Positions 1 through 23,355 of a stretch of 25,941 bases of DNA are shown piece by piece. Below the pieces are notes generated by a model. The model was not told where the DNA came from. It ran no database searches and was given only the letters and a program-made list of their open reading frames with translations. The number at the start of each line of letters is the position of its first letter. Within the stretch, counting starts at the first letter, position 1. The position numbers and the translations under genes are program-made. This stretch comes from a virus, in the IMG/VR virus record IMGVR_UViG_3300046804_003195, positions 1 to 25,941 of that record; one strand, given 5' to 3'.

Positions 1-1139
1 TGTTGATTCATAGGATAACACGTGCTCCAGAAAGAAGGATATTCTACACAAACGTTGGAGCGATTCCACCAAATGAGGTTGAGAACTATGTTCAGAGGAT
101 GATCAATAAGATGAAAAAGACTCCACTAATCGATCCACAGACTGGAAACTACAACTTAAAATATAATCAGCAAAACCTTCTAGAAGACTTCATCGTTCCA
201 GTAAGAGGCAATGATACTTCTACAAGGATTGACACGGCAAAAGGTCTCGAGTACAATGCGATAGAGGACGTGGTTTACTTCAGAGAAAAGCTGTTTGCTG
301 CGCTGAAGATACCAAAGGCGTTCATGGGATACGAAAAGGATCTCACAGGTAAAGCTACATTGGCCGCAGAAGACATCAGATTTGCTCGCACGGTAGAAAG
401 ATTGCAAAGGATCATAGTATCAGAGCTCAAGAAGATAGCACTGGTTCACCTATATGCAAACGGATATACGGACGAGGGCATGGCAAACTTCACGCTAAGC
501 CTCACAAACCCGTCTATCATATACGATCAGGAGAGGATTGCAATGTTCAAAGAGAAGATTGATTTGGCAGCACAAGCAGTTGAAGGCGCAATACTTCCAA
601 AAGAATACGTGTGGGAAAACATCTTCCATCTTTCTCCAGATTCATTCGGTGAGCTTGAAGATATGATAGTACAGGATCAAAAGAACAAATTCAGATACGA
701 CCAGATAGAGACAGAAGGAAATGATCCACTTGAATCTGGAACTGCGTTTGGAACTCCTTCTCAGATAGCTGGATTATACGGAGGCAAGGAAGTGCTAGAT
801 GTACCAGCTGGATATAATGAGAAGAATCCAAATGAACCTGTAAAGATGCCAGGAAGACCAGAGAAATATAAGTCTATTATAGGCACAGATAAAAGTGCAT
901 TTGGCAGAGATCCTATAGGCAGAAAAGGGGCAACATCAAATATAGAGCGTGGGGAAGATAAAGTGGAATATAAAGGAGGACCATTAAGCTTTGAAAGTAC
1001 GATGGCTGTTTATCTACAAAATAAAGAAGGTTTATCAAAGATGTTTGGAGCAAAGAAAGTAACGCTATTTGAAGACAAGACTGAGACTGGTGGACTATTA
1101 GACGAAACAAACATTAAAGACGATTTAGTCGAGGGATAA
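1..1139 (+). CDS. gp20: Portal protein, gp20-like (5' truncated)
   Basis: This is the dodecameric portal of T4-like phages, which sits at one head vertex, nucleates prohead assembly and is the channel for DNA packaging. The window starts inside the gene: the frame is open from base 3, and its first codon (TTG) is unlikely to be the true start. About 378 residues are visible, against about 520 in T4 gp20, so roughly the N-terminal third is missing. The motif HRITRAPERRIFY followed by an acidic ...LEDFIVPVRG segment and EDVVYFREKLFAALKIP is the family's central signature. The C-terminal 100 residues (GRPEKYKSIIGTDKSAFG onward) are polar and look like a variable tail. It is followed after 34 bases by a promoter-like box and the next head gene. 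Identity is confident; only the 5' end is lacking. Confidence 0.93.
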   Translation, partial: LIHRITRAPERRIFYTNVGAIPPNEVENYVQRMINKMKKTPLIDPQTGNYNLKYNQQNLLEDFIVPVRGNDTSTRIDTAKGLEYNAIEDVVYFREKLFAALKIPKAFMGYEKDLTGKATLAAEDIRFARTVERLQRIIVSELKKIALVHLYANGYTDEGMANFTLSLTNPSIIYDQERIAMFKEKIDLAAQAVEGAILPKEYVWENIFHLSPDSFGELEDMIVQDQKNKFRYDQIETEGNDPLESGTAFGTPSQIAGLYGGKEVLDVPAGYNEKNPNEPVKMPGRPEKYKSIIGTDKSAFGRDPIGRKGATSNIERGEDKVEYKGGPLSFESTMAVYLQNKEGLSKMFGAKKVTLFEDKTETGGLLDETNIKDDLVEG

Positions 1140-1173: not shown

Positions 1174-2022
1174 ATGGCATCATTCAAACATTCAAAATAT
1201 CGAAATTCTGGCATACTGTTCGAGCTACTAGTTAGACAAACTACAGCCGATCTTATAGCCAATAGAGACTCTAAAGCGGTGAAGATACTGAAGAAGTATT
1301 ACACAAACACAGAGCTTGGCAAGGAGTACGCTTTATATAACAATGTAATAACAAGTCCAAAGTTATCAGAGTCAAAGGCAGAGATGCTGATATCGACTAT
1401 TATAGAGCAATACAAGAAGCTAAATAAAGAATCCATACAGAAGCTTAAATACAATCTTATAAAGGAGATCAAAGCAAGCTACGACATAGATGAATTCTTT
1501 AAAGCCAAAGTAGATAATTACAAGACTTTAGCCGCAATATACAATACTCTAGAATCTCAGAATACAAAAGACGTAGATATAAGACAAGTATTCCTAAATA
1601 AGGTAGTTGTACTCGAACATGTTACCAAATCTAAATTGGAAAACATGCCAGTATCAAAATCTATTATGGAAGAATTGATGCAAGAAGACAAAGAGATCAG
1701 GTTGCTTACTTATAAGATTCTGGTAGAGAAATTTAACCAAAAGTATAATAACCTTTCAGGAAGACAAAAAGATGTGCTTAACAACTACATCATAAGCATA
1801 TCAGATACTACAAAGCTAAATCAATACGTAAATACCCAGCTTACAGAGATAAAGTCAGAAATACAGACAATATCTAAAAAGGTGACTGATAAGGTAGTTA
1901 AGATAAAGCTTGATGAGGTAGTAAAGCTAATACAACCAGTAACAAAGATAAAAGACGAGACTATAGCAGGTCTTCTCCAATATATCGATTTAATTGACGA
2001 ACTTAATAAGGTGCACAAATGA
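1174..2022 (+). CDS. Unassigned head-module protein next to portal
   Basis: I cannot assign a function. The 282-residue protein is charged and mostly helical in appearance, Lys/Glu-rich, with no signal peptide or membrane segment. Its N-terminus, MASFKHSKYRNSGILFELLV, resembles what I recall of uncharacterised proteins beside the portal in aquatic T4-like phages. The remainder is predicted long helices, for example around residues 85-130 and 190-280. It lies directly after the portal and overlaps the next gene by four bases (ATGA), which indicates translational coupling. T4 has small prohead-core proteins (gp67, gp68) in this position, so a core or portal-associated role is plausible, but I see no sequence similarity to them. 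The ATG follows an ATATTTAT box by about 20 bases, which supports the start. Confidence 0.8.
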   Translation: MASFKHSKYRNSGILFELLVRQTTADLIANRDSKAVKILKKYYTNTELGKEYALYNNVITSPKLSESKAEMLISTIIEQYKKLNKESIQKLKYNLIKEIKASYDIDEFFKAKVDNYKTLAAIYNTLESQNTKDVDIRQVFLNKVVVLEHVTKSKLENMPVSKSIMEELMQEDKEIRLLTYKILVEKFNQKYNNLSGRQKDVLNNYIISISDTTKLNQYVNTQLTEIKSEIQTISKKVTDKVVKIKLDEVVKLIQPVTKIKDETIAGLLQYIDLIDELNKVHK

Positions 2023-2711
2023 GTGATATGCAATCGATGGTAGACATGCTTCGTATGGATGAGAACGATCAGTCTTATGATGATCAGAAGACGGCAGAAG
2101 AACTCATTGATATGCTTATGGGTATGATCGCTTCAGGTCAGATCACAGTAGATCAAGCAAAAGAGATGATACGTAATGCTCCAGAAAACGTAGATGAGAT
2201 GTCTGCAACTGGAGGTGGAGCTGCAACAGGTGGTGCTACATTTACTCCTGGATCTGGAATGCAATACGCTCAAGCATTGGATCAACCTAAGAAAAAACCA
2301 AAAAAGGAAGTAAAAGATAAAGAACCAAAACTCGCTGCAGGAAAAATCAAACAGAATTATGCAGTGGATCATTTTGGTTTCACTCCAGCCCCTTCAATAC
2401 CAAATCGACCATCAACAGGAGGATTCCAATATAAAGACTTATGGGGAGAATCTGAGAGCTTGCAAGAAAGCTATTCCAAGTTTAAAAAAGCGGCAAGAGA
2501 AAGAAATGGTACAGGTCAATTAAACGCTGGCATAAGCATAGTAAGAAAAAAGCTTGCGGAGGTACATAAAATGATGGAATACCTGGCAACACTGAAAAGC
2601 GATCTATCAACAGCTGGAATGGTAAATGAAACTTCTCACACAAAAAAGTCACTGGCAAAGATGACTGAGATGATAACACAAATCTACGCAAAACACAAAA
2701 AACTCAAATAG
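2019..2711 (+). CDS. Unassigned head protein with capsid-like processed segment
   Basis: This 230-residue protein matches no family I can name. It has three parts. Residues 1-60 are acidic and Met-rich, apparently helical. Residues 61-84 are a Gly/Ala/Thr-rich segment (MSATGGGAATGGATFTPG...). Residues 85-230 are Lys-rich with a predicted helical C-terminus. The Gly-rich segment aligns without gaps to residues 62-85 of the major capsid protein, and in both proteins it is preceded by Glu (residue 60 here, 61 there), the P1 residue used by T4-type prohead proteases. I infer a prohead protein cut after Glu60. The start overlaps the stop of the upstream gene (ATGA), and a short basic ORF follows four bases after its stop. 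It could be a core, vertex or capsid-lining protein. Confidence 0.82.
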   Translation: MSDMQSMVDMLRMDENDQSYDDQKTAEELIDMLMGMIASGQITVDQAKEMIRNAPENVDEMSATGGGAATGGATFTPGSGMQYAQALDQPKKKPKKEVKDKEPKLAAGKIKQNYAVDHFGFTPAPSIPNRPSTGGFQYKDLWGESESLQESYSKFKKAARERNGTGQLNAGISIVRKKLAEVHKMMEYLATLKSDLSTAGMVNETSHTKKSLAKMTEMITQIYAKHKKLK

Positions 2712-2714
2712 TAT

Positions 2715-2843
2715 ATGGCAAAAGCGGGAGCTATAGGTAACGGAAACAAGACAACGTTTGGAGTAAGAAAGAAAGGACAGCCTCAGAAAGCTTACAACAA
2801 ACACACACCAAAGCCAAAGAAATACAGAGGCCAAGGCAGATAA
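2715..2843 (+). CDS. Small basic protein, 42 aa
   Basis: A short ORF runs from ATG 2715 to TAA 2841-2843, tightly packed between the 230-aa head gene (3 bases upstream) and the next promoter-like box. The product starts MAKAGAIGNGNKTTFG and is strongly basic (many Lys/Arg plus Gly, Gln and Pro), with no hydrophobic core. It looks disordered and nucleic-acid or acidic-protein binding. Basic peptides are common inside phage heads, and this one lies among head genes, so it may be an internal or core peptide; that is inference. The exact fit in the gap and absence of another gene on either strand support it being real. Confidence 0.6.
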   Translation: MAKAGAIGNGNKTTFGVRKKGQPQKAYNKHTPKPKKYRGQGR

Positions 2844-2846
2844 TCG

Positions 2847-2854
2847 ATATTTAT
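2847..2854 (+). promoter_or_regulatory. ATATTTAT box upstream of the 402-aa head gene
   Basis: Context is cgATATTTATta, with the first base 26 bases before ATG 2873. It follows the 42-aa ORF's stop codon almost immediately. Same box as at the other late-gene starts. Confidence 0.55.
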
Positions 2855-2872
2855 TATTAAAAATATAGAAAA

Positions 2873-4081
2873 ATGACAGTAGCAAACCTATTTGCGAAAC
2901 ATAAAGCTGGAGAAGTATCTAAAGAGAAGTTCTTATATGAAGTTCGTCGTGATGCTCAGCTTCCATATATAAGCAACTTGACTTCTTATGATGATGCTAT
3001 AAAGATCCTAAAGCAAAAAGGAGTAATTAAAGAAGCAGGCATTCAAAAAGATATAGATGGCACACCTTTACATGCATCAATAGCTCAAATGATGGGTCCT
3101 AATGATCCTTTGGCAAAAAAACATGTTGATGATTGGACTGAGGATGATCACAAAAGATTTTGGCATATAGCGAATATGGTTAAAACTACTGGTAAAGCAC
3201 CAGGACCATTATCTGGACAAAGTAGATTCCCAGTTGATGAATCAGCCTTAAATGAACAAGAGGACCTGTACCACCAGATAGACAGACTCAATCCAATTCT
3301 TGTTAAAAAGGCCGTGAATATGGAACTTGCAAAGCTTCCTATGATCAATGCTGAGATATACCAGAAGACTACAGAGAAGGTAGTTAAAAAGCTTCAGAAA
3401 GATCCTAGAGCATATGATGATGTGCTTGTGTCAAATGCAAAAGAGATACATAAAGTTGACGAGAAGAAAAAAATGGTGCCAGTAAAAGGAGATAGTCACA
3501 AAGATGATCATCACCAAATGAAAACCCCAAAAGGCATTGAAAAGAAACCTAAAGCAAACACAAAAGCTTCTAAGAAAGAAAATAAAAAAGGAAAGCCTGC
3601 CGGAGTAAAGCTCATGGAGGCAATCAAAGATATTCTAAAAAAAAAGCTAACTGAGGACGTACATCATGAATATGGAGTAGGTCAAGGAGTTGATGTTCCT
3701 GAAGGTCATGGTACTATCAAAGGAATGGTCGGAGATACGGTAACGCTGGAGTTTGAAGACGGAAGCCAAAAGGACTATCAGATCAATGCGCTAAACCATT
3801 TCAGAGAAGAGGCAAAGAAACCAAAAGAGGAAATGACTCCAGAGGTAAAAAAGCATGAACCTACGATGGATGAGAAAAAAGATGCAGTGATCAAAAGGGT
3901 GATGGAGCTTCTAAAAAAGAAAAAGAAGATGAAAGAAGTATATGCTACTAAAACAAAAGATGCTGCACAGAATGCTCAAATAAAAAAGACAATAATGCAA
4001 GGATCTCAAAATCAACAATCTGCTCAAGAATTAGTGACTGCATTTGATAAAGGAAAAACAGTAAATATACAAGCATCATAA
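2873..4081 (+). CDS. Unassigned Lys-rich head-module protein with SH3-like segment
   Basis: This is a 402-residue protein of unknown function. Residues 1-55 form a compact N-terminal region with LYEVRRDAQLPYISNLTSYD and a following helix (DDAIKILKQKG), a type of segment I recall from unannotated aquatic-phage proteins. Residues 190-245 are a Lys/His-rich low-complexity linker. Residues about 265-310 (EYGVGQGVDVPEGHGTIKG, then VTLEFEDGSQKDY) look like a small SH3/KOW-type beta barrel. Residues 320-402 are helical and very Lys-rich. There is no membrane segment. It lies between the portal-adjacent genes and the prohead protease, overlapping the protease start (TAATG), so it is probably made with it. 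A prohead-core or DNA-contacting internal protein is the best guess. The A-rich leader and upstream box support this start. Confidence 0.82.
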   Translation: MTVANLFAKHKAGEVSKEKFLYEVRRDAQLPYISNLTSYDDAIKILKQKGVIKEAGIQKDIDGTPLHASIAQMMGPNDPLAKKHVDDWTEDDHKRFWHIANMVKTTGKAPGPLSGQSRFPVDESALNEQEDLYHQIDRLNPILVKKAVNMELAKLPMINAEIYQKTTEKVVKKLQKDPRAYDDVLVSNAKEIHKVDEKKKMVPVKGDSHKDDHHQMKTPKGIEKKPKANTKASKKENKKGKPAGVKLMEAIKDILKKKLTEDVHHEYGVGQGVDVPEGHGTIKGMVGDTVTLEFEDGSQKDYQINALNHFREEAKKPKEEMTPEVKKHEPTMDEKKDAVIKRVMELLKKKKKMKEVYATKTKDAAQNAQIKKTIMQGSQNQQSAQELVTAFDKGKTVNIQAS

Positions 4082-4710
4082 TGAGCAAACAACTTTTAAT
4101 AGAATATTCAACGTTCAAGCCCATAACCAGTCTCAAAGAAGGACTTGGTCGTGGTGGCAACATGATGGTAGTTGGTAAGCTCTCTTCTGCTGATGTTCCT
4201 AATGCAAACAGGAGGATATACCCATACGATATTCTAAGATCACAAGTTCAAAAATACGTAGACGGACCTGTAAAGGAAAAAAGAGCATTTGGAGAACTTG
4301 ATCACCCAGAAGTCAGCATTATAAACCTAAAGAACGTAAGCCATAACATAGTTGAGTGCTGGTGGGACGGAAAAGATCTATACGGAAAAGTAGAGATATT
4401 ACCAACTCCATCTGGAAACATACTGATGACTTTGTTTGAAAACGGTCTTACAGTGGGCATATCTTCTAGAGCAATGGGTTCAGTAAGTCAAATAGGCGAA
4501 GGTCTAGTTCAAGTAGAAGACGATCTTGATATTATATGCTGGGACTTTGTATCAACACCATCTAACTTTGGATCTTATATGCATCCAGAAGGTAAGTCAG
4601 GATTGAAAGAATCGGTAGACTACAGCATAAAAGCAGACAAATACTCAAGGGCAAGCAAATTGATTTCTGAGATTATATGCCTTCAGAGCGGAGTTTGTTG
4701 CATAAATTAA
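4081..4710 (+). CDS. gp21: Prohead core protease, gp21-like
   Basis: This is the serine protease that sits in the prohead core and cleaves scaffold, capsid and internal proteins during maturation, then digests itself. The 209 residues are close to T4 gp21 (212). Family landmarks are visible: NRRIYPYDIL (43-52), the catalytic-His motif GELDHPEVS with His75, and GISSRAMGS with the likely nucleophile Ser128 or Ser129, followed by a conserved DLDIICWDFVSTPS segment. The catalytic assignments follow the family pattern and are not proven. The start overlaps the upstream stop (TAATG), so translation is probably coupled. A strong terminator follows, which separates it from the scaffold and capsid genes. 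In T4, gene 22 follows gene 21 in the same order. Confidence 0.9.
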   Translation: MSKQLLIEYSTFKPITSLKEGLGRGGNMMVVGKLSSADVPNANRRIYPYDILRSQVQKYVDGPVKEKRAFGELDHPEVSIINLKNVSHNIVECWWDGKDLYGKVEILPTPSGNILMTLFENGLTVGISSRAMGSVSQIGEGLVQVEDDLDIICWDFVSTPSNFGSYMHPEGKSGLKESVDYSIKADKYSRASKLISEIICLQSGVCCIN

Positions 4711-4733
4711 GCCAAAAATAAAAATAATTTTAG

Positions 4734-4763
4734 AAAGTACGCCTTTTTGGCGTATTTTTTTTT
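4734..4763 (+). terminator. Intrinsic terminator after the protease gene
   Basis: A perfect stem TACGCC/GGCGTA (4738-4743 and 4749-4754) closes a five-T loop and is followed by a run of nine T. Upstream A residues can extend the stem. It should end transcription from the portal-protease module before scaffold and capsid. Confidence 0.85.
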
Positions 4764-4792
4764 GATAAAATTTGATTCTCGGAAAAAGTCGT

Positions 4793-4800
4793 ATATTTAT
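4793..4800 (+). promoter_or_regulatory. ATATTTAT box upstream of scaffold-capsid module
   Basis: The box lies 30 bases after the protease-gene terminator, 14 bases before ATG 4807 of a small ORF and 114 bases before the scaffold start. It would restart transcription for scaffold and capsid. Confidence 0.5.
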
Positions 4801-4806
4801 CATCAG

Positions 4807-4938
4807 ATGCATCACTCCCAATATGATGCTAATGAACTAATACGCGATATCGCTCCACATCCCACCAATGAGCGGTTAACAGAATCCAAAAAACTTTTAA
4901 ACAAGTATGGAAAACATTTACACACAGGCTGTTGCTGA
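4807..4938 (+). CDS. Possible 43-aa protein or leader ORF before scaffold
   Basis: This ORF starts at ATG 4807, just 6 bases after the ATATTTAT box, so its message would be almost leaderless. It ends 32 bases inside the scaffold gene in another frame. The product starts MHHSQYDANELIRDIAPHP and is short, charged and probably helical. Residues 22-35, RLTESKKLLNKYGK, resemble residues 20-33 of the major capsid protein (LSVTQRLVKKWAKS), in the part expected to be removed on maturation. It could be a small prohead-core peptide, a remnant of a capsid-type propeptide, or a leader ORF that couples translation to the scaffold. The frame is also open upstream to 4747, but that includes the terminator, so 4807 is preferred. 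It may not be translated at all. Confidence 0.4.
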   Translation: MHHSQYDANELIRDIAPHPTNERLTESKKLLNKYGKHLHTGCC

Positions 4939-6118
4939 TGCAAAAGCAGTTCGTGAAAGCGCCATGGCCAACGCTAAAGCTGCAATTCAGGAAGCATTCG
5001 AGCCTAAAATCAAAGCGATGCTAAAAAAGCACATCGTAGAAACAGAAGGTCTTGAAGAAGAGTACGACGAAGTAGAAGAAGGTAAGCAGGAAATTTCTGG
5101 TTACAATAAGAAAGGTACTCGTATGAAGACAATTAAGCATGCTACTGGATTTGGAAAAGCTCCAGCTCCAAAAGATGCAATTGAAGATCTAGAAGAAGAA
5201 TACGACGAAATGGATGAGATGCATGGTCACGAAGAAGAAATGGACGAAATGGAAATGGCTGACGAAGCCTCTATGGAAGATCCAGGAAATCTAGACGAAA
5301 CTTCTCTTGATGAAATCCTTGCAGAACTTGACGCTCTTGAAGAAGGAGATAGTGAAGAAGATGAGCTGGATGAAGCAAAAGAAGAAGAACTAGACGAATC
5401 TTACGAAATGGACGAGGCTAAAGAAGAAGAGGAAGAAGAAACCGAAACTGAAGAAGATGAAGATGGCGAAGAGTCAGAAGAATCAACTGAAGAAACTAAA
5501 GTGGTTGATATCACACTCGGAGATCTAGTTGACGCAATCAAAGCAGCTATGGCATCAGAAACTCCAGCACCAGAAATGGGAGGAGAAGAAACACCAGCAG
5601 ACGACGACATTTCTCTTGATGAGATCCTTGCAGAACTCGAAGAAGAAATGAAAGACGAAGGTGCAGGTTCTGGAGACTACATGGACGAAGCTAAGAAGAA
5701 AAAAGACAAAGAACAAATCGCTGGACACAAAGGCGCGGCAGTTAAAGCAGCAGAAAAAGAGACTGCATACAAGAAAGAACTGTCTGAAGCTAAGAAAGCA
5801 ATCACAGCAATGAGAGCAGAGCTGAACGAGGTAAATCTCCTTAACGCTAAACTGCTTTATGTAAATAAGATCTTCAAGTCTAAGTCTCTTACAGAAGCTC
5901 AAAAAGTAAAGGTCCTGAATGCATTTGACAAGGCAACCACAGTTAAAGAGGTTAAAAACACTTATAGCATTATCAGTGAATCAATGACTGCAGCGCCTAA
6001 AAAGCAACTTAAAGAGTCTTACGGATTCGCATCTAAGCCAGCAGGAGTAGCTCCAAAAGCAAACACAGTTGAGTCTGATCCTTTCATAGCTAGAATGCAG
6101 AAATTAGCAGGACTTTAA
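4907..6118 (+). CDS. gp22: Prohead scaffold/core protein, gp22-like
   Basis: This is the main internal scaffold around which capsid subunits assemble; it is later degraded by the prohead protease. Evidence is the position between protease and capsid genes, strong negative charge, helical character and a T4 gp22-like C-terminal region: residues 318-346 include KSLTEAQKVKVLNAF, comparable to the LTESQKEKV stretch of T4 gp22. At 403 residues it is longer than T4 gp22 (269), mainly through a Glu/Asp-rich centre (about 90-260). That centre contains a duplicated SLDEILAEL motif (133-141 and 236-244), nearly identical in DNA. Several (hydrophobic)-x-Glu sites could be protease targets. The C-terminus ends ARMQKLAGL, echoed in the 101-aa protein downstream of the tail tube. 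TAA at 4898 blocks any earlier start in this frame. Confidence 0.85.
   Translation: MENIYTQAVADAKAVRESAMANAKAAIQEAFEPKIKAMLKKHIVETEGLEEEYDEVEEGKQEISGYNKKGTRMKTIKHATGFGKAPAPKDAIEDLEEEYDEMDEMHGHEEEMDEMEMADEASMEDPGNLDETSLDEILAELDALEEGDSEEDELDEAKEEELDESYEMDEAKEEEEEETETEEDEDGEESEESTEETKVVDITLGDLVDAIKAAMASETPAPEMGGEETPADDDISLDEILAELEEEMKDEGAGSGDYMDEAKKKKDKEQIAGHKGAAVKAAEKETAYKKELSEAKKAITAMRAELNEVNLLNAKLLYVNKIFKSKSLTEAQKVKVLNAFDKATTVKEVKNTYSIISESMTAAPKKQLKESYGFASKPAGVAPKANTVESDPFIARMQKLAGL
5303..5329 (+). repeat. SLDEILAEL repeat, copy 1 (scaffold)
   Basis: A 27-base segment coding SLDEILAEL is 25/27 identical to the segment at 5612-5638. Both differences are third-position. Confidence 0.8.
5612..5638 (+). 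repeat. SLDEILAEL repeat, copy 2 (scaffold)
   Basis: Second copy of the 27-base scaffold repeat, 309 bases after the first. The near-identity in DNA suggests a recent internal duplication. Confidence 0.8.
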
Positions 6119-6157
6119 TCAAAACAAAAATTTAAACTAAACTAAAAAACACACAAA

Positions 6158-7816
6158 ATGAATCTAGTAAATTCCCTTTTACAGGAGTCTGCACAGAATG
6201 CGTATAGCACGCAGCTGTCAGTAACTCAAAGACTCGTTAAGAAGTGGGCAAAATCAGGCCTTCTTAAGAACCTTAACGAGCACGATTCAAGGACGATGGC
6301 GATGATCCTTGAAAATCAGTCTAAACAGCTCGTAGTTGAGTCATCTACCTCTAATGCAGGTGGTGCAACTCCACAAGCTACATTCACTGCAGGAAACGGT
6401 GAACAGTGGGCAGGCGTGGCTCTTCCATTGGTGCGTAAGATCTTCGGTCAGCTGGCATCAAAAGAGTTCGTAAGCGTACAGCCGATGAACCTTCCTGCTG
6501 GTCTGGTATTCTACCTCGACTTCCAGTATGGTACTTCAGGAAATCCTAACTTTACTCAAAATTCATCACTTTACGGTACGCAATCTGCAAACTTTGGTAA
6601 CTTTGCTACAGGTGGTCTTTACGGTCCTGGTAAGTTTGGTTATTCGTTGAATCTTTTCACAGCATCTACAGCGATAGCAGCAGCAGGTGTAACTTCTGGT
6701 TCATGGGCAGAACTTGGATTTGATTCAACTTATTCATCATCTATAGTAAATCAACAAATTAAAAAAATCCCAATACCAGTAACATCTTTATCTGGATCAA
6801 ATCTATTAGGTGTTAGAGCGTTTACAATAACTTCTGGATCTACTATTGTTCTTGGAGATAATATTCCAGCGGCTACTACAACAGATGGAACTAACGTTTA
6901 CTTCTATGTATCAGCTTCTACAGCGGAAATGACAGGTACTACATCGTATGTTGTACAGTATCAAAAATCTACTGACTTCAATAAGATGGGTGACTTCGAA
7001 GATCGCACTGCAACTCAGGGTGTATCTGTACCGAACGCATATTCTGCTACCTCAATCTCTATCCCAGAGATCAACGTTGCAATGCAGAGCCAGACTATCT
7101 CGGCTAAGACTCGTAAGTTGAAAGCACAGTGGACTCCAGAATTCGCTCAGGACCTGAATGCGTACCACTCTCTGGATGCTGAAGCTGAACTGACTGGTAT
7201 CCTTTCTGAGTACATCACTCTTGAGATCGACCTTGAGGTTCTTGACATGCTGATCGAAAAAGCTCCAACAACTGACTTCTGGTCTGCAAAAGTTGGTAAT
7301 CAGATTAATAGTGGAAATACTGCATTCGATTCAAATACAGCAGGCGTGTTCTACAACCAGATGACTTGGTTCCAGACTATCGGTATCAAGCTGCAGAAGT
7401 TGTCGAACATCATTCACCAGCGTACACTTCGTGGAGGTGCAAACTTCATGGTAATCTCTCCAGCAGTAGCTACTATCCTTGAGTCAATTCCAGGATTCGC
7501 AGCTGATACTGACGGTGCAGCAGACACAATGAAGTACGCTTTCGGTGTACAGAAGATCGGATCTCTGAATAGCCGTTACAAGGTGTACAAGAACCCATAC
7601 ATGACTGAGAACGTGATCCTGTTAGGTTTCCGCGGTAATCAGTTCCTTGAGACTGGTGCTGTATACGCTCCTTACGTGCCGCTGATCATGACGCCTCTGG
7701 TGTACGATCCGAACACGTTCACTCCAAGGAAAGGTATCATGACTCGTTACGCGATGACAATGGTTCGTCCAGAATTCTACGCTAACCTGTTCGTATCTGA
7801 CCTGAATGTAGTCTAA
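6158..7816 (+). CDS. gp23: Major capsid protein, gp23-like
   Basis: This HK97-fold capsid subunit of T4-like phages is made as a precursor. The 552 residues compare with 521 in T4 gp23. Family landmarks include VQPMNLPAGLVFYLDFQYG (about 108-126), TRKLKAQWTPEFAQDL (about 318-333), a GGANFMVISPAVATIL block and the C-terminal GAVYAPYVPLIMTPLVYDP...GIMTRYAMTMVRPEFYANL. The N-terminal 61 residues look like the removable propeptide: a helical SVTQRLVKKWAKSGLL stretch, LENQ, then LVVE with a predicted cut after Glu61. Residues about 165-270 have a different codon choice from the rest and form a probable surface insertion. Codon use elsewhere is strongly biased (ATC for Ile, CTG for Leu), as expected of the most abundant virion protein. 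No promoter-like box precedes it, so it is probably co-transcribed with the scaffold; a terminator follows. Confidence 0.95.
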   Translation: MNLVNSLLQESAQNAYSTQLSVTQRLVKKWAKSGLLKNLNEHDSRTMAMILENQSKQLVVESSTSNAGGATPQATFTAGNGEQWAGVALPLVRKIFGQLASKEFVSVQPMNLPAGLVFYLDFQYGTSGNPNFTQNSSLYGTQSANFGNFATGGLYGPGKFGYSLNLFTASTAIAAAGVTSGSWAELGFDSTYSSSIVNQQIKKIPIPVTSLSGSNLLGVRAFTITSGSTIVLGDNIPAATTTDGTNVYFYVSASTAEMTGTTSYVVQYQKSTDFNKMGDFEDRTATQGVSVPNAYSATSISIPEINVAMQSQTISAKTRKLKAQWTPEFAQDLNAYHSLDAEAELTGILSEYITLEIDLEVLDMLIEKAPTTDFWSAKVGNQINSGNTAFDSNTAGVFYNQMTWFQTIGIKLQKLSNIIHQRTLRGGANFMVISPAVATILESIPGFAADTDGAADTMKYAFGVQKIGSLNSRYKVYKNPYMTENVILLGFRGNQFLETGAVYAPYVPLIMTPLVYDPNTFTPRKGIMTRYAMTMVRPEFYANLFVSDLNVV

Positions 7817-11831: not shown

Positions 11832-13298
11832 ATGCCACAATTAAGAAATAAACAGTTAGAATATCCATTAAGTGGATCATTTACCGGTAGTTTACTTGGT
11901 ACGGCTTCCTATGCAGATTATTCAACTTCGGCATCATTTGGAATATCTAGTTCGTATTCACTAAGTTCAAGCTATAGTGTAACATCTTCTTATTCTGTAA
12001 ATTCAACTAGTGCTTCATATGCCTTATCAAGTTCAAACTCAATAAGTGCAAGTTATAGTACTACAGCATCATATTCAGTAAGTAGTTCACAGACAGTATC
12101 AAGCTCATATGCTCTAAGTTCATCATACAGTAATACAAGTACATCCGCTTCATACGCACAAACGGCTTCAAATGCTCCAGGGTACCTACCACTCACCGGT
12201 GGAACTATCACAGGAGATTTAACTATTATAGGTACGGGTTCCATAGCATACTTAAATGTAACATACGAATCTGCATCGATAATATACTCTTCAGGATCAA
12301 ACCAATTTGGAGATGCAGCAAATGATACTCAGACACTATATGGATCGGTTATAATACCGACAGGAAGTTTAACTGTGAGTGGAAGCACAACAATCACAGG
12401 ATCTCTAATTGTAACTTCAGGTATAACAGGATCTCTTTTAGGAACTGCTTCGTTTGCTAGTACAGCGTCTTACGTAACAGCGTCAAATGTCTACGGGCCT
12501 TATGGATCTAATAGCATTGTAAGTGCTTCATATGCACTAAGTTCATCCCAAGCACAGAATTCAGTAACAAGTTCTTATGCACTGACAGCATCTTATGTAG
12601 CAAATGCATCATCGTTCCCATTCACAGGTTCGGCAATAATAACTGGATCCCTAATTGTAACAGGATCAGTAACGTCAACCGACGGATTTACTGGAAGTTT
12701 ATTAGGAACATCCTCTTGGGCAAATAACGCAGTAACAGCATCTTATGTCACGGCCTCAAACGTATACGGACCTTATGGATCAAATTCAATAATATCTTCA
12801 TCCTATGCGTTAAGCAGTTCTTATTCGGTATCAAGCTCTTTTACTGTTGCCGCACAAACGGCTTCTTATGTAAACCCTTTATCCCAGAGTGTTATAATAA
12901 CAGGTTCGCTTATTGTATCGGGATCTACAAACATACAAAGCAACACGGGTACTCAGTTTTCTATGAATGCAGATACCCTTTTGATTACGGGTTCTCTCAT
13001 AGTCACTGGATCATCTATATTCACGGGTAGTGTATCAGTTTTAGGCGCAGTAAATGCAACATCGTTCACAGGATCGTTATTAGGGACTGCTTCATACGCA
13101 TCTCAAGCTCTTAGCAGTTCTTTTGCAACTACAGCATCATATTCGGTTACATCTAGTTATTCTTTATCTAGTTTATCAGCATCATATGTTTTATCGTCTA
13201 GTTTTTCAACAACTGCGTCATATGCAATAACAGCTAGCTATGCGATAACAAGTTCATATTCATTTACAGCAAGTTACATAGACGGAGGATTTTACTAA
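11832..13298 (+). CDS. Ser/Ala-rich repetitive fibre protein
   Basis: This is a 488-residue protein dominated by short repeats: a seven-residue pattern of the SSYSLSSSYSVTSSYSV type (about residues 30-110 and 440-485), with interspersed FTGSLLGTASYA and ITGSLIVTGS modules. Such GSL/GTASYA modules are frequent in fibre genes of uncultured aquatic phages and suggest a long trimeric beta-structured shaft; the exact role is inferred. Residues 211-229 and 302-320 are identical 19-residue repeats. There is no signal peptide or membrane segment. It starts two bases after the gp15-like stop and overlaps the next ORF by one base. It opens the 8.4 kb locus of fibre-type genes. It may form the long fibre shaft, with later genes providing tips; that division is a guess. 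Confidence 0.82.
   Translation: MPQLRNKQLEYPLSGSFTGSLLGTASYADYSTSASFGISSSYSLSSSYSVTSSYSVNSTSASYALSSSNSISASYSTTASYSVSSSQTVSSSYALSSSYSNTSTSASYAQTASNAPGYLPLTGGTITGDLTIIGTGSIAYLNVTYESASIIYSSGSNQFGDAANDTQTLYGSVIIPTGSLTVSGSTTITGSLIVTSGITGSLLGTASFASTASYVTASNVYGPYGSNSIVSASYALSSSQAQNSVTSSYALTASYVANASSFPFTGSAIITGSLIVTGSVTSTDGFTGSLLGTSSWANNAVTASYVTASNVYGPYGSNSIISSSYALSSSYSVSSSFTVAAQTASYVNPLSQSVIITGSLIVSGSTNIQSNTGTQFSMNADTLLITGSLIVTGSSIFTGSVSVLGAVNATSFTGSLLGTASYASQALSSSFATTASYSVTSSYSLSSLSASYVLSSSFSTTASYAITASYAITSSYSFTASYIDGGFY
12462..12518 (+). repeat. 19-residue protein repeat, copy 1
   Basis: Codes TASYVTASNVYGPYGSNSI. The amino acids are identical to those at 12735-12791, while 11 of 19 codons differ synonymously. 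Confidence 0.85.
12735..12791 (+). repeat. 19-residue protein repeat, copy 2
   Basis: Second copy of the identical 19-residue segment, 273 bases downstream and in frame, with diverged codons. Confidence 0.85.
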
Positions 13299-14214: not shown

Positions 14215-17200
14215 ATGCCCGATAAAATAATACACTTACGTAGCTTAACGCCTGGCTCTGTGCCTACAACATCTTCTCTTGGAGTTGGTCAGATAGCTAT
14301 TAATGTGCCAGATGGAAAGGCTTTCTTGAGACAATCAGGAAGTCAAGGAGATACTATACAGTCTTTTGTAACTACCAACTCAACTACTACAGGAAGCATA
14401 AATATATCAGGCTCAGTTACTTTAACAGGGTCGCTAAATATATCAGGTTCAACAACGCAAATAGGAAACAACAACCTATTAGGAAACACAACTCTATCTG
14501 GAAGCATAATAATTTCTGGTTCCACTATAGATCCAACTGTACAAATATACGGTAATGTAGAACACAATGGGTATATACGATTCGATCCAGTAAGTACAAA
14601 TATAAACACTTCGATATCAGCCTCATACATTTACGTGTCAGGTTCAACAAATGACTTGTACTTCTCACAGAATGGTAGTGGATTTAATAACGTAACTCGT
14701 CTTAGATGGTTAGAAGGTAACTTATACACAGGTCTTTTAAACGGAGGAAATTTAACTGCTACTGGTACTACAACATATCAAATATCAAGCGGTAGTGGTG
14801 TCATAGTAAATTTGAATGCATCGCTTACAAATAATCCATTTCCAACAATACAATACATAAATTGGGGAAATCTATCTGGAACCATAACTGCTCCAACAAC
14901 TTATGATCAGTCTTTTGTAGCAATTTCAAGCTCTGGTCAAATATACGCTCAAGGAACACCATTTACGGATGGTCAGGTAGATACGTATATTCCAATAGGA
15001 GTCGTACTACATCAGAATCACACAACGATAAACGGTGTTGCAACACAACCAAGCGTAGCGTATGGATGGAAGCAAAGGAGTAACGTATTCATATCTGCTT
15101 TTGGCCCATTAAAGTTAGCTGGATATACATTAGCAGTGAGTAGCTCAGGAGGAGTGAACTCAACAGGCAGCCTCATAGTTGGTAATGGTACTGCATTCTT
15201 AGACGGAGGCAATTATCAAACAGATCCAAATAATCCAGCATACGTAACAGGATCCGGAGCAACTCAGACAAAGATATTTAGATACTACGATTCTGGTTCG
15301 GAATTTGCGTATGATACCGCAAACGGTGCTGGATACGGAGCGATAGATCCAACGCAATACTCAAACAATGGAGTATTAACACTGGTGCCTGGAGCCGGAT
15401 CTAATAGACAGTGGTCCATACAGAGATGCTTTTTCTTCCCTACAAGTCCACTAAGTCCAAAACCCATAGTGGTCTATTACGGCAATGCGACCTATACAAC
15501 ACAGGCAGACGCAATAGCAAATATATCTATTGAACCATTCACAGAAGCACCAAACACGGCAGCAAACGCAATATATTTAGGAGCTCTGATTGTTAGAAAC
15601 GATGCTAATTTTACGAACTCTGCCACCTACAAAATAGTACCAGGTGGATTGTTTAGGTCGGTTGGAGGATCTGGAGGTGGAACTACGGTGACAAATACGT
15701 TAGCAGGTTTATCTGACGTGTCTCTAGGAACTTTATCGTATGGAGACTTACTGATGTACGATAGCACGCATTGGTATAACACAAAAACTTTAAGTGGAAG
15801 TTATACTCTGAGTGGAAGTCTAAATGCTACTGAGGGTATTACTGGATCCATTTTAGGCACTGCATCATACGCAACATACGCGGCAAACGGAGGGGTAACA
15901 CAGCTATTGGCGGGATCTGGAATATCACTGGCTCCAACAAATGGTCTGGGTCAAGTAACCATAACTTCTACAGGAGGAGGAAGTGGAGTATACGGAAATA
16001 CCGCGACTGGATCTTACGGTAGTTTTTATTCTACACAGACGCAAACAGTAGGTATAGCAAACAATCCGTATTCGATGTCTTTCAATAATACAGAAGTTGC
16101 AAACGGAGTTGCGATATCTGGATCAGAAAACACAAAGATAAAGATAACCAATCCAGGATGGTATGATTTACAGTTCTCTGCTCAGTTAAACAAATCTGGA
16201 GTTGGCGCAGGAGTTGTAAATTTTTATATATGGCTTAGAAAAAATGGAATAAACTTAGCGGCAACAAACACTATAGTTCAACAGCAGGGCGGAGCAAACT
16301 CTAGAACTGTAGCTGCATGGAACTGGTTTTTGAACGCTGCAGCCAATGATTATTACGAGATTATGTGGGCTGCTGATGCGACAGATGCAATATTAGAATA
16401 CGTAGCAGCTCCAACAAATGGTCCATCAATACCCTCAGTGATAGCAACTGTAAGCAGAATAGATCAATTCTTAAGCAATACTGGTTCATTTACAGGTTCT
16501 TTTACTGGTGAATTGATAGGTACTGCTTCATATGCAACAAATGGATTAAGCTCATCATACTCAATATCAAGTTCATATAGTTTAAGTTCTTCTTATGCTC
16601 TAAGTTCATCATACTCAATATCGTCATCATATTCAGTAAGTAGTTCTCAAGCAGTATCAAGCTCATTTGCGACTACTGCAAGCTATGTTCTACAATCAGT
16701 ATCAGCATCTTTTTCTAGTACAGCAAGCTTTGTTAATACGCTAAACCAAAATGTTCTAATCACTGGAAGTCTAACAATAGCATCTTCAAGTATAGGTCCA
16801 AATGAAAATACTGTTACTTTAGGTGCTAGGGACACAGCTGGAGAAGGCGGTCAAATTGGATTTAATGCTCCAGGAGGTATTTATACTTCTGCATCTATGC
16901 TTGATAACTATCAGAATAGATTTAGAATACTTAAAGGTACTAATAATGGAAGTACTGAAGAAGTAGCAAGCTGGAATCTTCATACAAAGCAGATGGTCCT
17001 AAATGGATATACGTCTACTACATCATTCCCAGGTACAGCAGCAGCAACATTGGCAGTTGATTCTTCAGGTAATGTAATAACTACAACTGGAGGAGGAGGC
17101 GCATCATTTCCATATACAGGTTCAGCAGTTATCACAGGAAGTCTTATAGTAACTGGAAGTGCAACGTTTACTGATAGCATATTATATGATGCTATACTAA

Positions 17201-17496
17201 TGACATCATCTATAGTAACAACGGCTGGAGGAAATACAACCATATTAACTCAAGCGACTGGATCATATAGAGCAATGTTTGCAAAGTATACAGTACTAAA
17301 TGCTTTAAATGCAAGAGCGGGTGAATTTATGATGGTATGGACTGGTTCAAGTTTTCAATTCACAGATACTTCTACGGTGGATATAGGATCAACAGCAGCG
17401 GTAGCACTTACAGGATCTCTTTCTGGAGCAAATGTATTATTAACTACAGCACCTGGATCTGGATGGACTGTAAAAGTGCAGACAACATACATATAA
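14215..17496 (+). CDS. Large tail fibre protein with C1q/TNF-like domain
   Basis: This 1093-residue multidomain fibre is the largest gene in the window. Residues 1-55 (HLRSLTPGSVPTTSSLGVGQ, AINVPDGKAFLRQ) match the N-terminal anchor seen in many phage fibre and tropism proteins. Residues 60-110 carry GSLNISGS repeats. Residues about 110-490 are mixed beta structure. Residues 493-560 contain the LAGLSDVSLGTLSYGDLLMY module followed by GTASYA. Residues about 595-752 resemble a C1q/TNF-type jelly roll (PGWYDLQFSAQLNKSG ... VNFYIWLRKNGINL). Residues about 757-845 are SSYS repeats like those in the 488-aa protein. The C-terminus has an LGARDTAGEGGQIGFNAPGG module. It is likely a receptor-contacting trimer. 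The jelly-roll call is from pattern only. Confidence 0.83.
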   Translation: MPDKIIHLRSLTPGSVPTTSSLGVGQIAINVPDGKAFLRQSGSQGDTIQSFVTTNSTTTGSINISGSVTLTGSLNISGSTTQIGNNNLLGNTTLSGSIIISGSTIDPTVQIYGNVEHNGYIRFDPVSTNINTSISASYIYVSGSTNDLYFSQNGSGFNNVTRLRWLEGNLYTGLLNGGNLTATGTTTYQISSGSGVIVNLNASLTNNPFPTIQYINWGNLSGTITAPTTYDQSFVAISSSGQIYAQGTPFTDGQVDTYIPIGVVLHQNHTTINGVATQPSVAYGWKQRSNVFISAFGPLKLAGYTLAVSSSGGVNSTGSLIVGNGTAFLDGGNYQTDPNNPAYVTGSGATQTKIFRYYDSGSEFAYDTANGAGYGAIDPTQYSNNGVLTLVPGAGSNRQWSIQRCFFFPTSPLSPKPIVVYYGNATYTTQADAIANISIEPFTEAPNTAANAIYLGALIVRNDANFTNSATYKIVPGGLFRSVGGSGGGTTVTNTLAGLSDVSLGTLSYGDLLMYDSTHWYNTKTLSGSYTLSGSLNATEGITGSILGTASYATYAANGGVTQLLAGSGISLAPTNGLGQVTITSTGGGSGVYGNTATGSYGSFYSTQTQTVGIANNPYSMSFNNTEVANGVAISGSENTKIKITNPGWYDLQFSAQLNKSGVGAGVVNFYIWLRKNGINLAATNTIVQQQGGANSRTVAAWNWFLNAAANDYYEIMWAADATDAILEYVAAPTNGPSIPSVIATVSRIDQFLSNTGSFTGSFTGELIGTASYATNGLSSSYSISSSYSLSSSYALSSSYSISSSYSVSSSQAVSSSFATTASYVLQSVSASFSSTASFVNTLNQNVLITGSLTIASSSIGPNENTVTLGARDTAGEGGQIGFNAPGGIYTSASMLDNYQNRFRILKGTNNGSTEEVASWNLHTKQMVLNGYTSTTSFPGTAAATLAVDSSGNVITTTGGGGASFPYTGSAVITGSLIVTGSATFTDSILYDAILMTSSIVTTAGGNTTILTQATGSYRAMFAKYTVLNALNARAGEFMMVWTGSSFQFTDTSTVDIGSTAAVALTGSLSGANVLLTTAPGSGWTVKVQTTYI
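16546..16740 (+). repeat. Ser-rich heptad-like repeat tract in the large fibre
   Basis: About 195 bases encode tandem SSYS(I/L/V/A)SS units with variable codons. The same repeat type occurs in the gene at 11832-13298 (for example around 11940-12170). Confidence 0.75.
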
Positions 17497-17544: not shown

Positions 17545-18408
17545 ATGCCAAATGAATTCGTAGCCCGAAATGGGTTTATCTCAAATAATAATTCTGAAAT
17601 AACTGGATCGATAATTACAACTGGTGGGATATATGGAAATATTACTTCAGCATCCTACGCTGATACTGCTTCTTTTGGAACCTCAGTTTTAACAGCGTCT
17701 TATGTATTATCAGCTATAACATCCTCTTATTCAGATTATGCTGTAACATCAAGCACAACAGTTACTGCGTCAGTATACGCTTTACCTTCATATGCTCCCA
17801 CAGTCGGATTAAATACTTACATATCACCATATTTATGTTGGACAGAAACTACAGGAGCTTTTTTATCACAGCCAATAGGATTAGATAATATAGTAGTTAC
17901 TCCAGTTTTAATAAATAGGACATGTAATTTATTTTCCGTAGGATTATCTTTTGCTTCAACAGCAAGTGGAGTTCCAACAACTGCAAGTTTAGGTTTATAT
18001 AGAGATAATGGATCTATGTTACCAAGTACACTAATACAATCTCTCGGAAACATAGCAACAACTAGTTCAACTCTACAATATATAGAGGTTATGCCTGCTC
18101 CAAGTATATCATTAAATGCAAAGAATATTTATTGGTTAGCATTTGTTGGTGATGCTGCATTAAGAGTAGGAATTCCAACTCATAATAATATGTTATTGAA
18201 TCCTTTATTAGGAGTAGATGTAACAGCAAGTTTTCCAGCTGCTAATACGTTTATTAGTTATAAAAATATTTCTAATTATGTAACAAGATCTGTAGGAAGT
18301 AGTACTACATTACCTTCTACATTGGGACAATCAACAACTACTTATACAATATATTCGTATGACTCTGCATCATCTTATATTGGGCCTATAATAAATGTAA
18401 CATACTAA
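17545..18408 (+). CDS. Adhesin-like fibre-tip paralogue 1
   Basis: This is the first of three tandem related proteins (287 residues). The N-terminal part (MPNEFVARNGFISNNNSEIT, then GSIITTGG and ASYADTASFG) is the short shaft/anchor type shared with the fibre genes. The C-terminal part (about 85-287) is a beta-rich domain with landmarks shared by the three: TPVLINRTC (119-127), GLYRDNGSMLP (150-160), NIYWLAF (194-200) and NPLLG (219-223), ending in VTY. I do not recognise a named family; a receptor-binding or carbohydrate-binding head is the natural reading from position and architecture. It lies behind its own box and leader hairpin and is separated by one base from paralogue 2. The DNA is AT-richer than the capsid gene. 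Confidence 0.8.
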   Translation: MPNEFVARNGFISNNNSEITGSIITTGGIYGNITSASYADTASFGTSVLTASYVLSAITSSYSDYAVTSSTTVTASVYALPSYAPTVGLNTYISPYLCWTETTGAFLSQPIGLDNIVVTPVLINRTCNLFSVGLSFASTASGVPTTASLGLYRDNGSMLPSTLIQSLGNIATTSSTLQYIEVMPAPSISLNAKNIYWLAFVGDAALRVGIPTHNNMLLNPLLGVDVTASFPAANTFISYKNISNYVTRSVGSSTTLPSTLGQSTTTYTIYSYDSASSYIGPIINVTY

Positions 18409-18409
18409 G

Positions 18410-19366
18410 ATGGCAAATGAATTTATAATTAGAGAAGGTTTTTTAAGTAACGGATCTACAACAGTAACTGGATCATTAATTGTGACTTCTGGAATTACAG
18501 GATCGTTAAATACTGCATCATACGCATTTACAGCAAGCTATACTACTAATGCTTTAAGTGCTTCGATAACAACAACAATCACGTCTGCATCATATTCAAC
18601 TACTGCATTATCATCAAGTTATTCTATTCAAGCTTCAAATATAATAGGAACAGTAACAGCATCATATTTACTTCCTCAAAATACAACTACATTATCTAAT
18701 ATAATACTTCCAGGGACTGCTAGTATAGGAGGAATATTATATCCTTTTAATTCAATGACTATATTGAATATTGCACAATTTAACGCTGTTACAAATGCTC
18801 AAGGCACGATATACTTAACTCCGATTGCAATTCAGAGTTCATGCGTACCCATTAAATTAGGCGTAGTAGCAAATACATCATTAGCAAATGCAGGAAGAAT
18901 AACATTAGGAATTTATAGCGGAACAGATAGAATGTTACCAGATGCTCTTTTAACATCTGCGAGTATTTTAAATATAGGAACAATAAGAACTGTATATACT
19001 GGATCTGTATCAAATACGATAACATTACAAAAAGATCAGATATACTGGTTAGCAATGGTAATGTCTGGTTCTGCTGGCGGTAACTCTCAAAATTCTTATG
19101 CTACAAATAACTTTATCTCTAGTACGTCTTGGTTTGGATTTACTCAAAATAGATTATTTAATCCTTTATTAGGCGTACAAATTCCCATAAATACAATTTC
19201 ATTAAGACAAGTAGCATATTATACAACAAGTTCTGCGAATCAATTATTACCGACTACATTACCAAACACAACTTCATCATATACAGTATTAGCATATAAT
19301 AGCAGATCAACTCAAGGAGGTAATAATGCTGGATCAGTCCCATTCCCACCACTTATATTTTATTAG
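18410..19366 (+). CDS. Adhesin-like fibre-tip paralogue 2
   Basis: At 318 residues, this is the longest and most diverged of the triplet. The N-terminus MANEFIIREGFLSNGSTTVT closely parallels paralogue 1, followed by TGSLIVTSG and repeated TASY units. Its C-terminal domain keeps the landmarks in the same order: LTPIAIQSSC (136-145, where the others have RTC), LGIYSGTDRMLP (167-177), IYWLAM (211-216) and NPLLG (251-255). An insertion rich in Ser, Asn and Gly (about 220-245) separates the last two. The change from RTC to SSC and the insertion suggest a different ligand. It starts two bases after the stop of paralogue 1 with no promoter-like box, so it is read from the same message. Confidence 0.8.
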   Translation: MANEFIIREGFLSNGSTTVTGSLIVTSGITGSLNTASYAFTASYTTNALSASITTTITSASYSTTALSSSYSIQASNIIGTVTASYLLPQNTTTLSNIILPGTASIGGILYPFNSMTILNIAQFNAVTNAQGTIYLTPIAIQSSCVPIKLGVVANTSLANAGRITLGIYSGTDRMLPDALLTSASILNIGTIRTVYTGSVSNTITLQKDQIYWLAMVMSGSAGGNSQNSYATNNFISSTSWFGFTQNRLFNPLLGVQIPINTISLRQVAYYTTSSANQLLPTTLPNTTSSYTVLAYNSRSTQGGNNAGSVPFPPLIFY

Positions 19367-19372
19367 AATATT

Positions 19373-20230
19373 ATGGGTAAATTTCAATCTAATCAATTAA
19401 TATCAAAAGATAATTCTATAATATCCGGATCTTTATTAGTATCTGGAAGTATTTTAGGATTAAATTATATATCGGCTTCAAATGTACTAACAAGCTCATA
19501 TGTACTAAATGCTACAACTGCATCATACACAACTACAATATCAATACCTACTTCATCATATACAACTTTTGCAGTAACATCATCAATATCATCTACTGCA
19601 TCATTTGCGCAAGGTCCTATATATGCACCTACAGTAGGAATTGGATATCTTAGTCCAAATTACTATATGGGAATAGCAGATACTTTTACAAATAATGCAA
19701 CTATATATTACCCGGGAGTATTATATTCTCCAATTTTAATAACAAGAACTTGTACATTAACTACAATGTCTATAGTTGGAGGTAATAATGGAGCTGCGGC
19801 GATAACAATTAGATCTGCGATATATTCACAATCAACATCTAGTTTTTTACCTCAAAATTTATTAGCACAAGCATCTGCATCCGTACCTGTTAACTCAGGT
19901 CTTATACAAGTAGCAAACATGCCACTTATTACTCCAATAACGTTACAAGCGGGCAATATATACTGGGTAGCATTTGCATCACCTACAAACTGGAAAATAG
20001 TAGTAGGATCAACAAATAGTGGTCATGCAAACTTTTCCAGTGCAAATCCACTATTGGGCCCAATGTATAGTACTGTAAACGCTCAATTTATTTCAAATAA
20101 TCTAATAGCGTCTGGATCAAATCTAGGGGCAACATTTTTAGCAACTTCTTCTCAGAATATAACAAATTATAGAGCACAACCAAACCAACAATATCCAGTA
20201 TTAATGCCAGTATTAAAAGTAACATACTAA
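19373..20230 (+). CDS. Adhesin-like fibre-tip paralogue 3
   Basis: The third paralogue has 285 residues. The N-terminus (MGKFQSNQLISKDNSIISGS) is shortened but still leads into GSLLVSGS and TASY units. The C-terminal domain is closest to paralogue 1 in length and spacing: SPILITRTC (119-127), SAIYSQSTSSFLP (148-160), NIYWVAF (195-201) and NPLLG (225-229), ending KVTY where paralogue 1 ends NVTY. APTVG (85-89 here) occurs at the same position in paralogue 1. The near-identical spacing with divergent residues between landmarks indicates old duplication and diversification at exposed loops. It follows paralogue 2 by six bases and precedes a 75-aa gene by one base. Confidence 0.8.
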   Translation: MGKFQSNQLISKDNSIISGSLLVSGSILGLNYISASNVLTSSYVLNATTASYTTTISIPTSSYTTFAVTSSISSTASFAQGPIYAPTVGIGYLSPNYYMGIADTFTNNATIYYPGVLYSPILITRTCTLTTMSIVGGNNGAAAITIRSAIYSQSTSSFLPQNLLAQASASVPVNSGLIQVANMPLITPITLQAGNIYWVAFASPTNWKIVVGSTNSGHANFSSANPLLGPMYSTVNAQFISNNLIASGSNLGATFLATSSQNITNYRAQPNQQYPVLMPVLKVTY

Positions 20231-22506: not shown

Positions 22507-23355
22507 ATGGATAAAAATACTGTAGTAAGAATCGCAATACCCTTGTCCCTTTACGAATCAGTGAAGGGCAAGGTTTTAAACGAATCATCAACCTCATCTA
22601 ATCCAGAAATTAAAAAATTAGAAAAGGAATTATTTGATGCGCTTAATGATCCAAAAATAACCGCTCTTATACAAAAGGGTATTGCTAAGATGAAACCAGA
22701 AGATAAAGAAGAATTAGCAAAAGTCACAATGTCAGAGGGAGAAGGAGGTGATTTTTCATCTTTTAAATCTATGGTAGATAAGTTTGTAGATAAAGCGCCG
22801 ATGAAAGAATTTGGAACTCACTATAGTATTAGTGATTTAGAATCTAGTGAAGATAAATCAAAGAGTGAGTTAAGTAAAGCTGCTGGAACAATAATCAAAA
22901 ATGCTGGAAAGGCGAATCTTATGAGTATGGGATTTCTTCCATCAATACTTGCAATAATTACTGATTACATAGGGGGAACTCACATTGTAGATACTGTTGG
23001 TAAAGCAGTTGGTGATGGAAGTGTAGCAGCAATATTATCTGTTGCAGGTGGACTATTAGCAGGTGGAGTGCTTTGGAAAATAGGATCAATGCTAAAAGGA
23101 GAAAAGATTAGTGGAGATGAACCATTATTTGAAGCAATTAAAAAATTCATTAAACAAGACGCTAAAAAAGTAGCTAAGAAAAAGACCACAGATAAAAAAG
23201 CGACTGATATAAAAGAAGAGAAAAAGGAACCATCAAAAGAAGACGCAGAGCTTATAGCAAAGATGGAAAAGATGGCAAAGAGCTCTGATCCAGGAAAAGC
23301 ATACGCAGCAGAACTTTTTTTGAAGACTCTTAAGAAGAAAAAAGCAAAAGCATAA
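22507..23355 (+). CDS. Unassigned protein with two hydrophobic segments and possible processing site
   Basis: This 282-residue protein lies between sheath and tube and starts two bases after the sheath stop. Residues 1-26 are a hydrophobic/helical leader ending KVLNE, followed by SSTSSNPE. The same Glu-Ser-Ser-Thr-Ser occurs at the predicted capsid cut site (residues 61-65 of that protein). Residues about 141-158 (MGFLPSILAIITDYIG) and 172-194 (VAAILSVAGGLLAGGVLWKI) are hydrophobic, long enough for membrane helices, joined by a Gly/Asp loop. Residues 205-282 are very Lys-rich with helical repeats. I recognise no family. It may be a head-packaged protein released on infection, a membrane-active tail protein or a holin-type protein; the lysine-rich tail fits binding to DNA or acidic surfaces. 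Confidence 0.78.
   Translation: MDKNTVVRIAIPLSLYESVKGKVLNESSTSSNPEIKKLEKELFDALNDPKITALIQKGIAKMKPEDKEELAKVTMSEGEGGDFSSFKSMVDKFVDKAPMKEFGTHYSISDLESSEDKSKSELSKAAGTIIKNAGKANLMSMGFLPSILAIITDYIGGTHIVDTVGKAVGDGSVAAILSVAGGLLAGGVLWKIGSMLKGEKISGDEPLFEAIKKFIKQDAKKVAKKKTTDKKATDIKEEKKEPSKEDAELIAKMEKMAKSSDPGKAYAAELFLKTLKKKKAKA

Follow-up and report, generated by a model that had tools for sequence, protein, structure and literature searches.

A 230-residue protein (orf230) from the head module of a T4-like phage carries, directly after a glutamate in a hydrophobic-x-Glu context, a segment resembling the start of the mature major capsid protein (MCP) of the same phage, and this resemblance recurs across a large group of T4-like phages, most of them uncultured. 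The explanation we favour, while holding it tentatively, is that orf230 is a minor core protein and that its cleavage exposes a mimic of the capsid N-fist, which would dock in capsid N-fist sites. The DNA studied (the window, 25,941 nucleotides) is a 25.9 kb viral contig that carries a head and tail module of the T4 type, in which the head genes are ordered portal, orf282, orf230, orf402, S77 protease, scaffold, MCP; other genes encode a PhoH-like protein, a tail sheath, and others. In MCP comparison, Flavobacterium phage immuto (56%) is the closest isolate, followed by Microcystis phage Mel-JY01 (48.5%). The head proteins on which the argument depends are as follows.

3..1139, + strand: C-terminal part of a gp20-type portal protein, its gene being cut by the start of the window (Pfam Portal_T4, 1.4e-47)
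2019..2711, + strand: orf230, 230 aa, proposed minor prohead core protein with an MCP-arm mimic (homologues in related loci)
4081..4710, + strand: gp21-like prohead core protease of the S77 type, proposed to make the cut (Pfam Peptidase_S77, 1.4e-26; PHROG 207)
4907..6118, + strand: acidic scaffold-like protein at the gp22 position, with many L/I-x-E sites and without the arm segment
6158..7816, + strand: gp23-type MCP, 552 aa (Pfam Gp23, 1.4e-76; PHROG 138)

The MCP of the window has the gp23 fold; T4 gp23 in the PDB was matched at 2.5e-33 by sequence and at 3.1e-7 by fold. For orf230 there was no Pfam match above the curated cut-off, the Gp23 domain included, and no PHROG match, and tblastn of orf230 and of the consensus arm against a phage collection returned nothing. 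The AF2 model of orf230, of low confidence (pTM 0.29), consists of helices at residues 4-53 and 139-229 and a disordered linker, with residues 57-110 disordered between them; a lysine-rich linker precedes the C-terminal helices. The neighbouring orf282 (1174-2022), beside the portal gene, matched no PHROG or Pfam family and is kept across the group (90 ORFs in the fetched loci; gp073 in immuto). The parts of orf230 and of the MCP discussed below are these.

2019..2198, + strand: residues 1-60 of orf230, proposed propeptide (AF2 model with helices 4-39 and 44-53; Glu-60 in V-D-E context)
2196..2198, + strand: Glu-60 codon of orf230 (V58-D59-E60), proposed prohead-protease cut site (hydrophobic-x-E in 53/67 distinct family sites)
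2199..2270, + strand: MCP-arm-like segment of orf230, residues 61-84, MSATGGGAATGGATFTPGSGMQYA (pairwise and profile comparisons)
2433..2705, + strand: residues 139-229 of orf230, helical C-terminal region and the family-conserved part (homologue alignment, AF2 model)
6338..6340, + strand: MCP Glu-61 codon (V-V-E), counterpart of T4 gp23 Glu-65, invariant in 48 aligned MCPs
6341..6412, + strand: MCP mature N-terminal arm, residues 62-85, N-fist-equivalent by profile alignment to T4 gp23*

The reading frames and the similarity are as the preliminary description gave them: residues 61-84 of orf230 align without gaps to residues 62-85 of the MCP with 12 of 24 identical, and in both proteins Glu precedes the shared segment (Glu-60 in orf230, Glu-61 in the MCP). 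The best ungapped pair of 24-residue stretches in the two proteins starts one residue earlier, at both Glu. The local alignment score was equalled by 2 of 2000 whole-sequence shuffles and by 7 of 2000 local shuffles; taken alone the pairwise similarity is moderate evidence, and relatives were therefore fetched for profile tests (31 loci with orf230 and 80 loci with the MCP). Chance convergence of Gly/Ser/Thr-rich linkers through biased composition would be in keeping with these shuffle counts and with the low complexity of the segment, but the profiles argue against it. When the six frames of the window were searched with a profile of 72 MCP arms, the MCP was found at 3.8e-17 and orf230 at 5.4e-7, while the next best match stood at 2.9. 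In hhalign of full-length family alignments the orf230 and MCP families meet exactly at the arm block (prob 93.7, E 1.9e-7), and the arm-to-arm profile score was 34.0, while none of 100 column-shuffled controls scored above 11.2. Profiles of 67 family sites and of the 72 MCP arms retrieve each other across 116 loci: the former found 57 MCP ORFs at E<0.1, with one reversed decoy at E<1, and the latter found 34 orf230-family ORFs at E<0.1 and zero decoys. Just two ORFs classed as neither were matched by the 67-site profile; both follow directly on orf282 in the same locus and probably belong to the orf230 family without having been recognised. Specific F, T, E, Q, and W/Y residues recur in the segment, and no other Gly/Ser-rich protein matched in the whole genomes searched. 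Chance convergence is thus largely refuted by the whole-record, decoy, six-frame, and column-shuffle results and is very improbable. With profiles the sequence evidence for a shared segment becomes strong, and comparison of both segments across relatives indicates a similarity that is real, specific, and long-kept.

Within the group, nearly every locus has at the orf230 position a protein with hydrophobic-x-Glu followed by x-S-x-T-G-rich sequence. The FTxGxGxQ core occurs in 42 of the 67 distinct family sites (at the locus flanked by the portal and S77 prohead protease genes), so that the similarity does recur in homologues; the remaining 25 have only E-x-S-x-T-G-rich sequence and an aromatic residue. 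Short forms of the segment read, for example, E-MSTSGGAGAYNTPYAF or E-MSVTGGGEAYLPG, and both isolates examined, immuto and Mel-JY01, have short forms. When 13 whole phage records, of 47 to 190 kb, were searched with an arm profile built from the family alone, just the orf230-family protein and the MCP were matched (MCP E-values down to 8.6e-9), with no third place in any of the 13, of which 12 gave matches; Mel-JY01 gave no match, and in immuto gp072 alone was matched. A generic motif on many phage proteins is ruled out in the records searched, since just two places match. The segment is also rejected as a general T4-like trait, T4, two cyanophages, and Rhodothermus phage RM378 being without a match in a search that had no positive control of its own, though the same profile had given matches in 12 of the 13 whole records; by eye, the arm segment was not seen in T4 gp67/gp68 or their cyanophage equivalents. 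The sharing between orf230 and the MCP that had been described from the window is real, but it is not confined to two proteins of one phage.

The position of the segment relative to Glu is consistent with proteolytic processing. T4 gp21 cuts after L/I-x-E, taking 65 residues off gp23 and 7 to 65 off virion proteins (PMC9026906). All 95 MCP sequences have [VI]-x-E at the proposed cut. In the orf230 family, L, I, V, M, or F stands at P3 in 53 of 67 sites, against 39% for other Glu of the same proteins, a hydrophobic excess whose nominal p of 2e-11 is too strong, given that the sequences share ancestry and that 14 of the sites were assigned manually. L or I is found at P3 in 31 of the 67 sites; the window orf230 has V-D-E, with Val rather than Leu or Ile. 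The S77 protease gene lies within the same module, and the hydrophobic-x-Glu context of Glu-60 fits cleavage by a prohead protease, which we infer from sequence. The equal length of the two propeptides (60 and 61 residues) had been given weight, but the proposed-cut Glu of the family lies anywhere from residue 10 to 136 (at residues 10-22 in 28 of 67 relatives), so the equality in the window is a coincidence. The term propeptide sharing is likewise a misnomer, as the common part is the segment after the cut, the one that would correspond to the T4 N-fist.

A segment in this position could also be an extended substrate signature, in which each protein has to receive a single, exact cut, open, Gly-rich, Phe/Tyr-containing residues downstream of the cut are needed for protease access, and nothing is mimicked in the mature particle. 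Both segments begin right after hydrophobic-x-Glu and both are predicted to be flexible, as such a signature might be; however, FTxGxGEQ[WY]A, which holds the most-shared residues, stands about 10-24 residues beyond the cut and at no fixed distance from it (the Glu-to-Trp/Tyr spacing is 13-26 in MCPs), and the scaffold, an expected substrate with many L/I-x-E sites, does not have the segment, nor do T4 substrates. This makes the extended signature unlikely. Among the orf230 homologues (L007-L067), those with a short propeptide begin with conserved FNxQFATQxLRxE, which immediately precedes the proposed cut and resembles a capsid-targeting sequence (CTS), and in longer homologues domains are inserted between this start and the cut. 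Elsewhere in the window, a 282-aa protein (22507-23355) has VLNE/SSTSSNPE at residue 26, a putative cut (at the slash) like VVE/SSTSN of the MCP; this protein is another candidate protease substrate, although the arm profiles do not report it.

The two arms change together along lineages. Arms resemble those of the same lineage, following overall phage relatedness: own-genome pairs are more alike than permuted pairs (44.7 versus 36.8, 0/20000 permutations), and no surplus of own-genome similarity beyond phage relatedness was found. Over all arm pairs, the same codon is used at 218 of 477 identical residues, with 208 expected from codon usage. In one locus (L048) the MCP and the core protein share 18 consecutive identical residues with 52 of 75 nucleotides in common and mostly different third positions, and in another (L097) the unusual variant FTSGT-x-GEN-[WY]A is present in both. 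Recent duplication or gene conversion between the orf230 and MCP genes is ruled out, as synonymous codons are saturated; the resemblance is therefore no recent copy, and selection keeps or re-makes the protein sequence, in step by lineage. An old duplication, in which part of the capsid gene became joined to that of a core protein and has since persisted without a function, would explain a similarity limited to one block, as after fusion. It is improbable, because the protein stretch persists despite saturated synonymous sites and changes with the MCP arm by lineage, while a functionless copy would have decayed.

In T4, the N-fist is formed by gp23 residues 66-91 and binds neighbouring capsomers; in the five subunits whose N-fist is turned towards the portal it is disordered (PMC7136217). 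N-terminal regions are disordered in the prohead, become ordered on expansion, and reach the outer surface (PMC9958956). In profile alignment the shared block falls at the start of gp23*, directly after the T4 cut, and by this alignment the shared stretch corresponds to the gp23 N-fist; like the N-fist, which directly follows the cleaved Glu of gp23, it comes right after a Glu and is about 25 residues long. In T4, however, the N-fist is part of gp23, and a second protein with an N-fist was not found in the T4 record. The AF2 model of the MCP is moderate (pTM 0.58) and its arm has no confident fold (pLDDT about 30); with the MCP arm unresolved and the orf230 model weak, the models do not test docking.

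Several T4 head proteins share some features with orf230. The small head-core proteins gp67 and gp68 are encoded between the portal and prohead protease genes and are cut by gp21 (PMC9026906, PMC9958956). The orf230 gene likewise lies between portal (20) and prohead protease (21), as it does at the same locus in relatives, but homology to gp68 was rejected (hhalign prob 0.2), and gp67 and gp68 are degraded to small peptides and, unlike orf230, are without a gp23-arm segment. As in the T4 internal proteins IPI-III and Alt, whose short N-terminal propeptides are removed after x-x-Glu, the proposed propeptide ends in x-x-Glu, and several orf230-family members have a CTS-like length with Glu at 10-22; the IP-type CTS propeptide of T4, ending x-x-E, has 10-19 residues, however, compared with 60 in the window orf230. 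The IPs resemble one another in the propeptide (CTS), whereas orf230 and the MCP do so in the segment after the cut; a limited literature search found no description of a post-cut capsid segment shared with a non-capsid protein. In T4 the same protease also cuts the vertex protein gp24, as is proposed for orf230, but gp24 is a whole-length paralogue of gp23 and orf230 has just the arm, without the Gp23 domain.

In the proposed mechanism, orf230 would be a minor prohead core protein at the gp67/gp68 position, and the gp21-type protease would remove its propeptide after Glu-60, as it would that of the MCP after Glu-61. Residues 61 to about 86, now at the free N-terminus, would imitate the N-terminal arm of the MCP and enter N-fist receiving sites between capsomers, probably those next to the portal and the vertices, where the usual donor is missing. 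In this way the remainder of orf230, its lysine-rich linker and C-terminal helices, would be held at the inside or the rim of the shell, and orf230 would be present in the virion. Weighing against this mechanism are the 25 sites without the FTxGxGxQ core, the short forms in both isolates, an own-genome similarity no higher than expected from relatedness, Val at P3 in the window protein, and an N-fist assignment that depends on alignment to T4. Alternatively, the target of both arms may be a common third partner instead of the capsid N-fist site: the rim of the portal, a chaperone, or a further core protein. The orf230 gene is near the portal gene and correlated change along lineages fits any common partner, but in T4 the equivalent of the arm touches other subunits of the capsid (PMC7136217, PMC9958956) and no candidate partner has been identified, and binding to such a partner seems rather unlikely. 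For N-fist mimicry stated as a general device, a non-capsid head protein with a protease-released N-fist copy would plug capsid N-fist sites and anchor a core protein to the shell, with the arms co-evolving through one common receiving site; this is possible, though somewhat doubtful. A review calls localisation to the core "mysterious" and its structure unresolved (PMC9958956), and the proposal bears on T4-type core-shell contacts and on the filling of portal and vertex sites that miss their regular N-fist partner. An arm common to capsid and core protein offers a direct handle, with a single predicted cut, a single predicted docking site, and numerous natural variants, and if docking is true it would be a natural, protease-controlled attachment of cargo to a phage shell.

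Another head-protein terminus may be copied on other proteins. The sequence R[MF]QKLAG[LI] ends the scaffold proteins of the group (37 matches; 4907-6118 in the window) and starts small ORFs elsewhere (20 matches; 23882-24187 in the window), and it is never found mid-protein; the scaffold of RM378 ends in RIKRLAGL. In immuto it is on two small ORFs as well as at the scaffold end. It is possibly a capsid-targeting sequence. Finally, Ser/Tyr-rich repeats (SSYSxSSSYALSSS, TASYALS, SLLGTASYA) are found in consecutive putative fibre or neck proteins of the window (11832-13298, 14215-17496, and 17545-20230).
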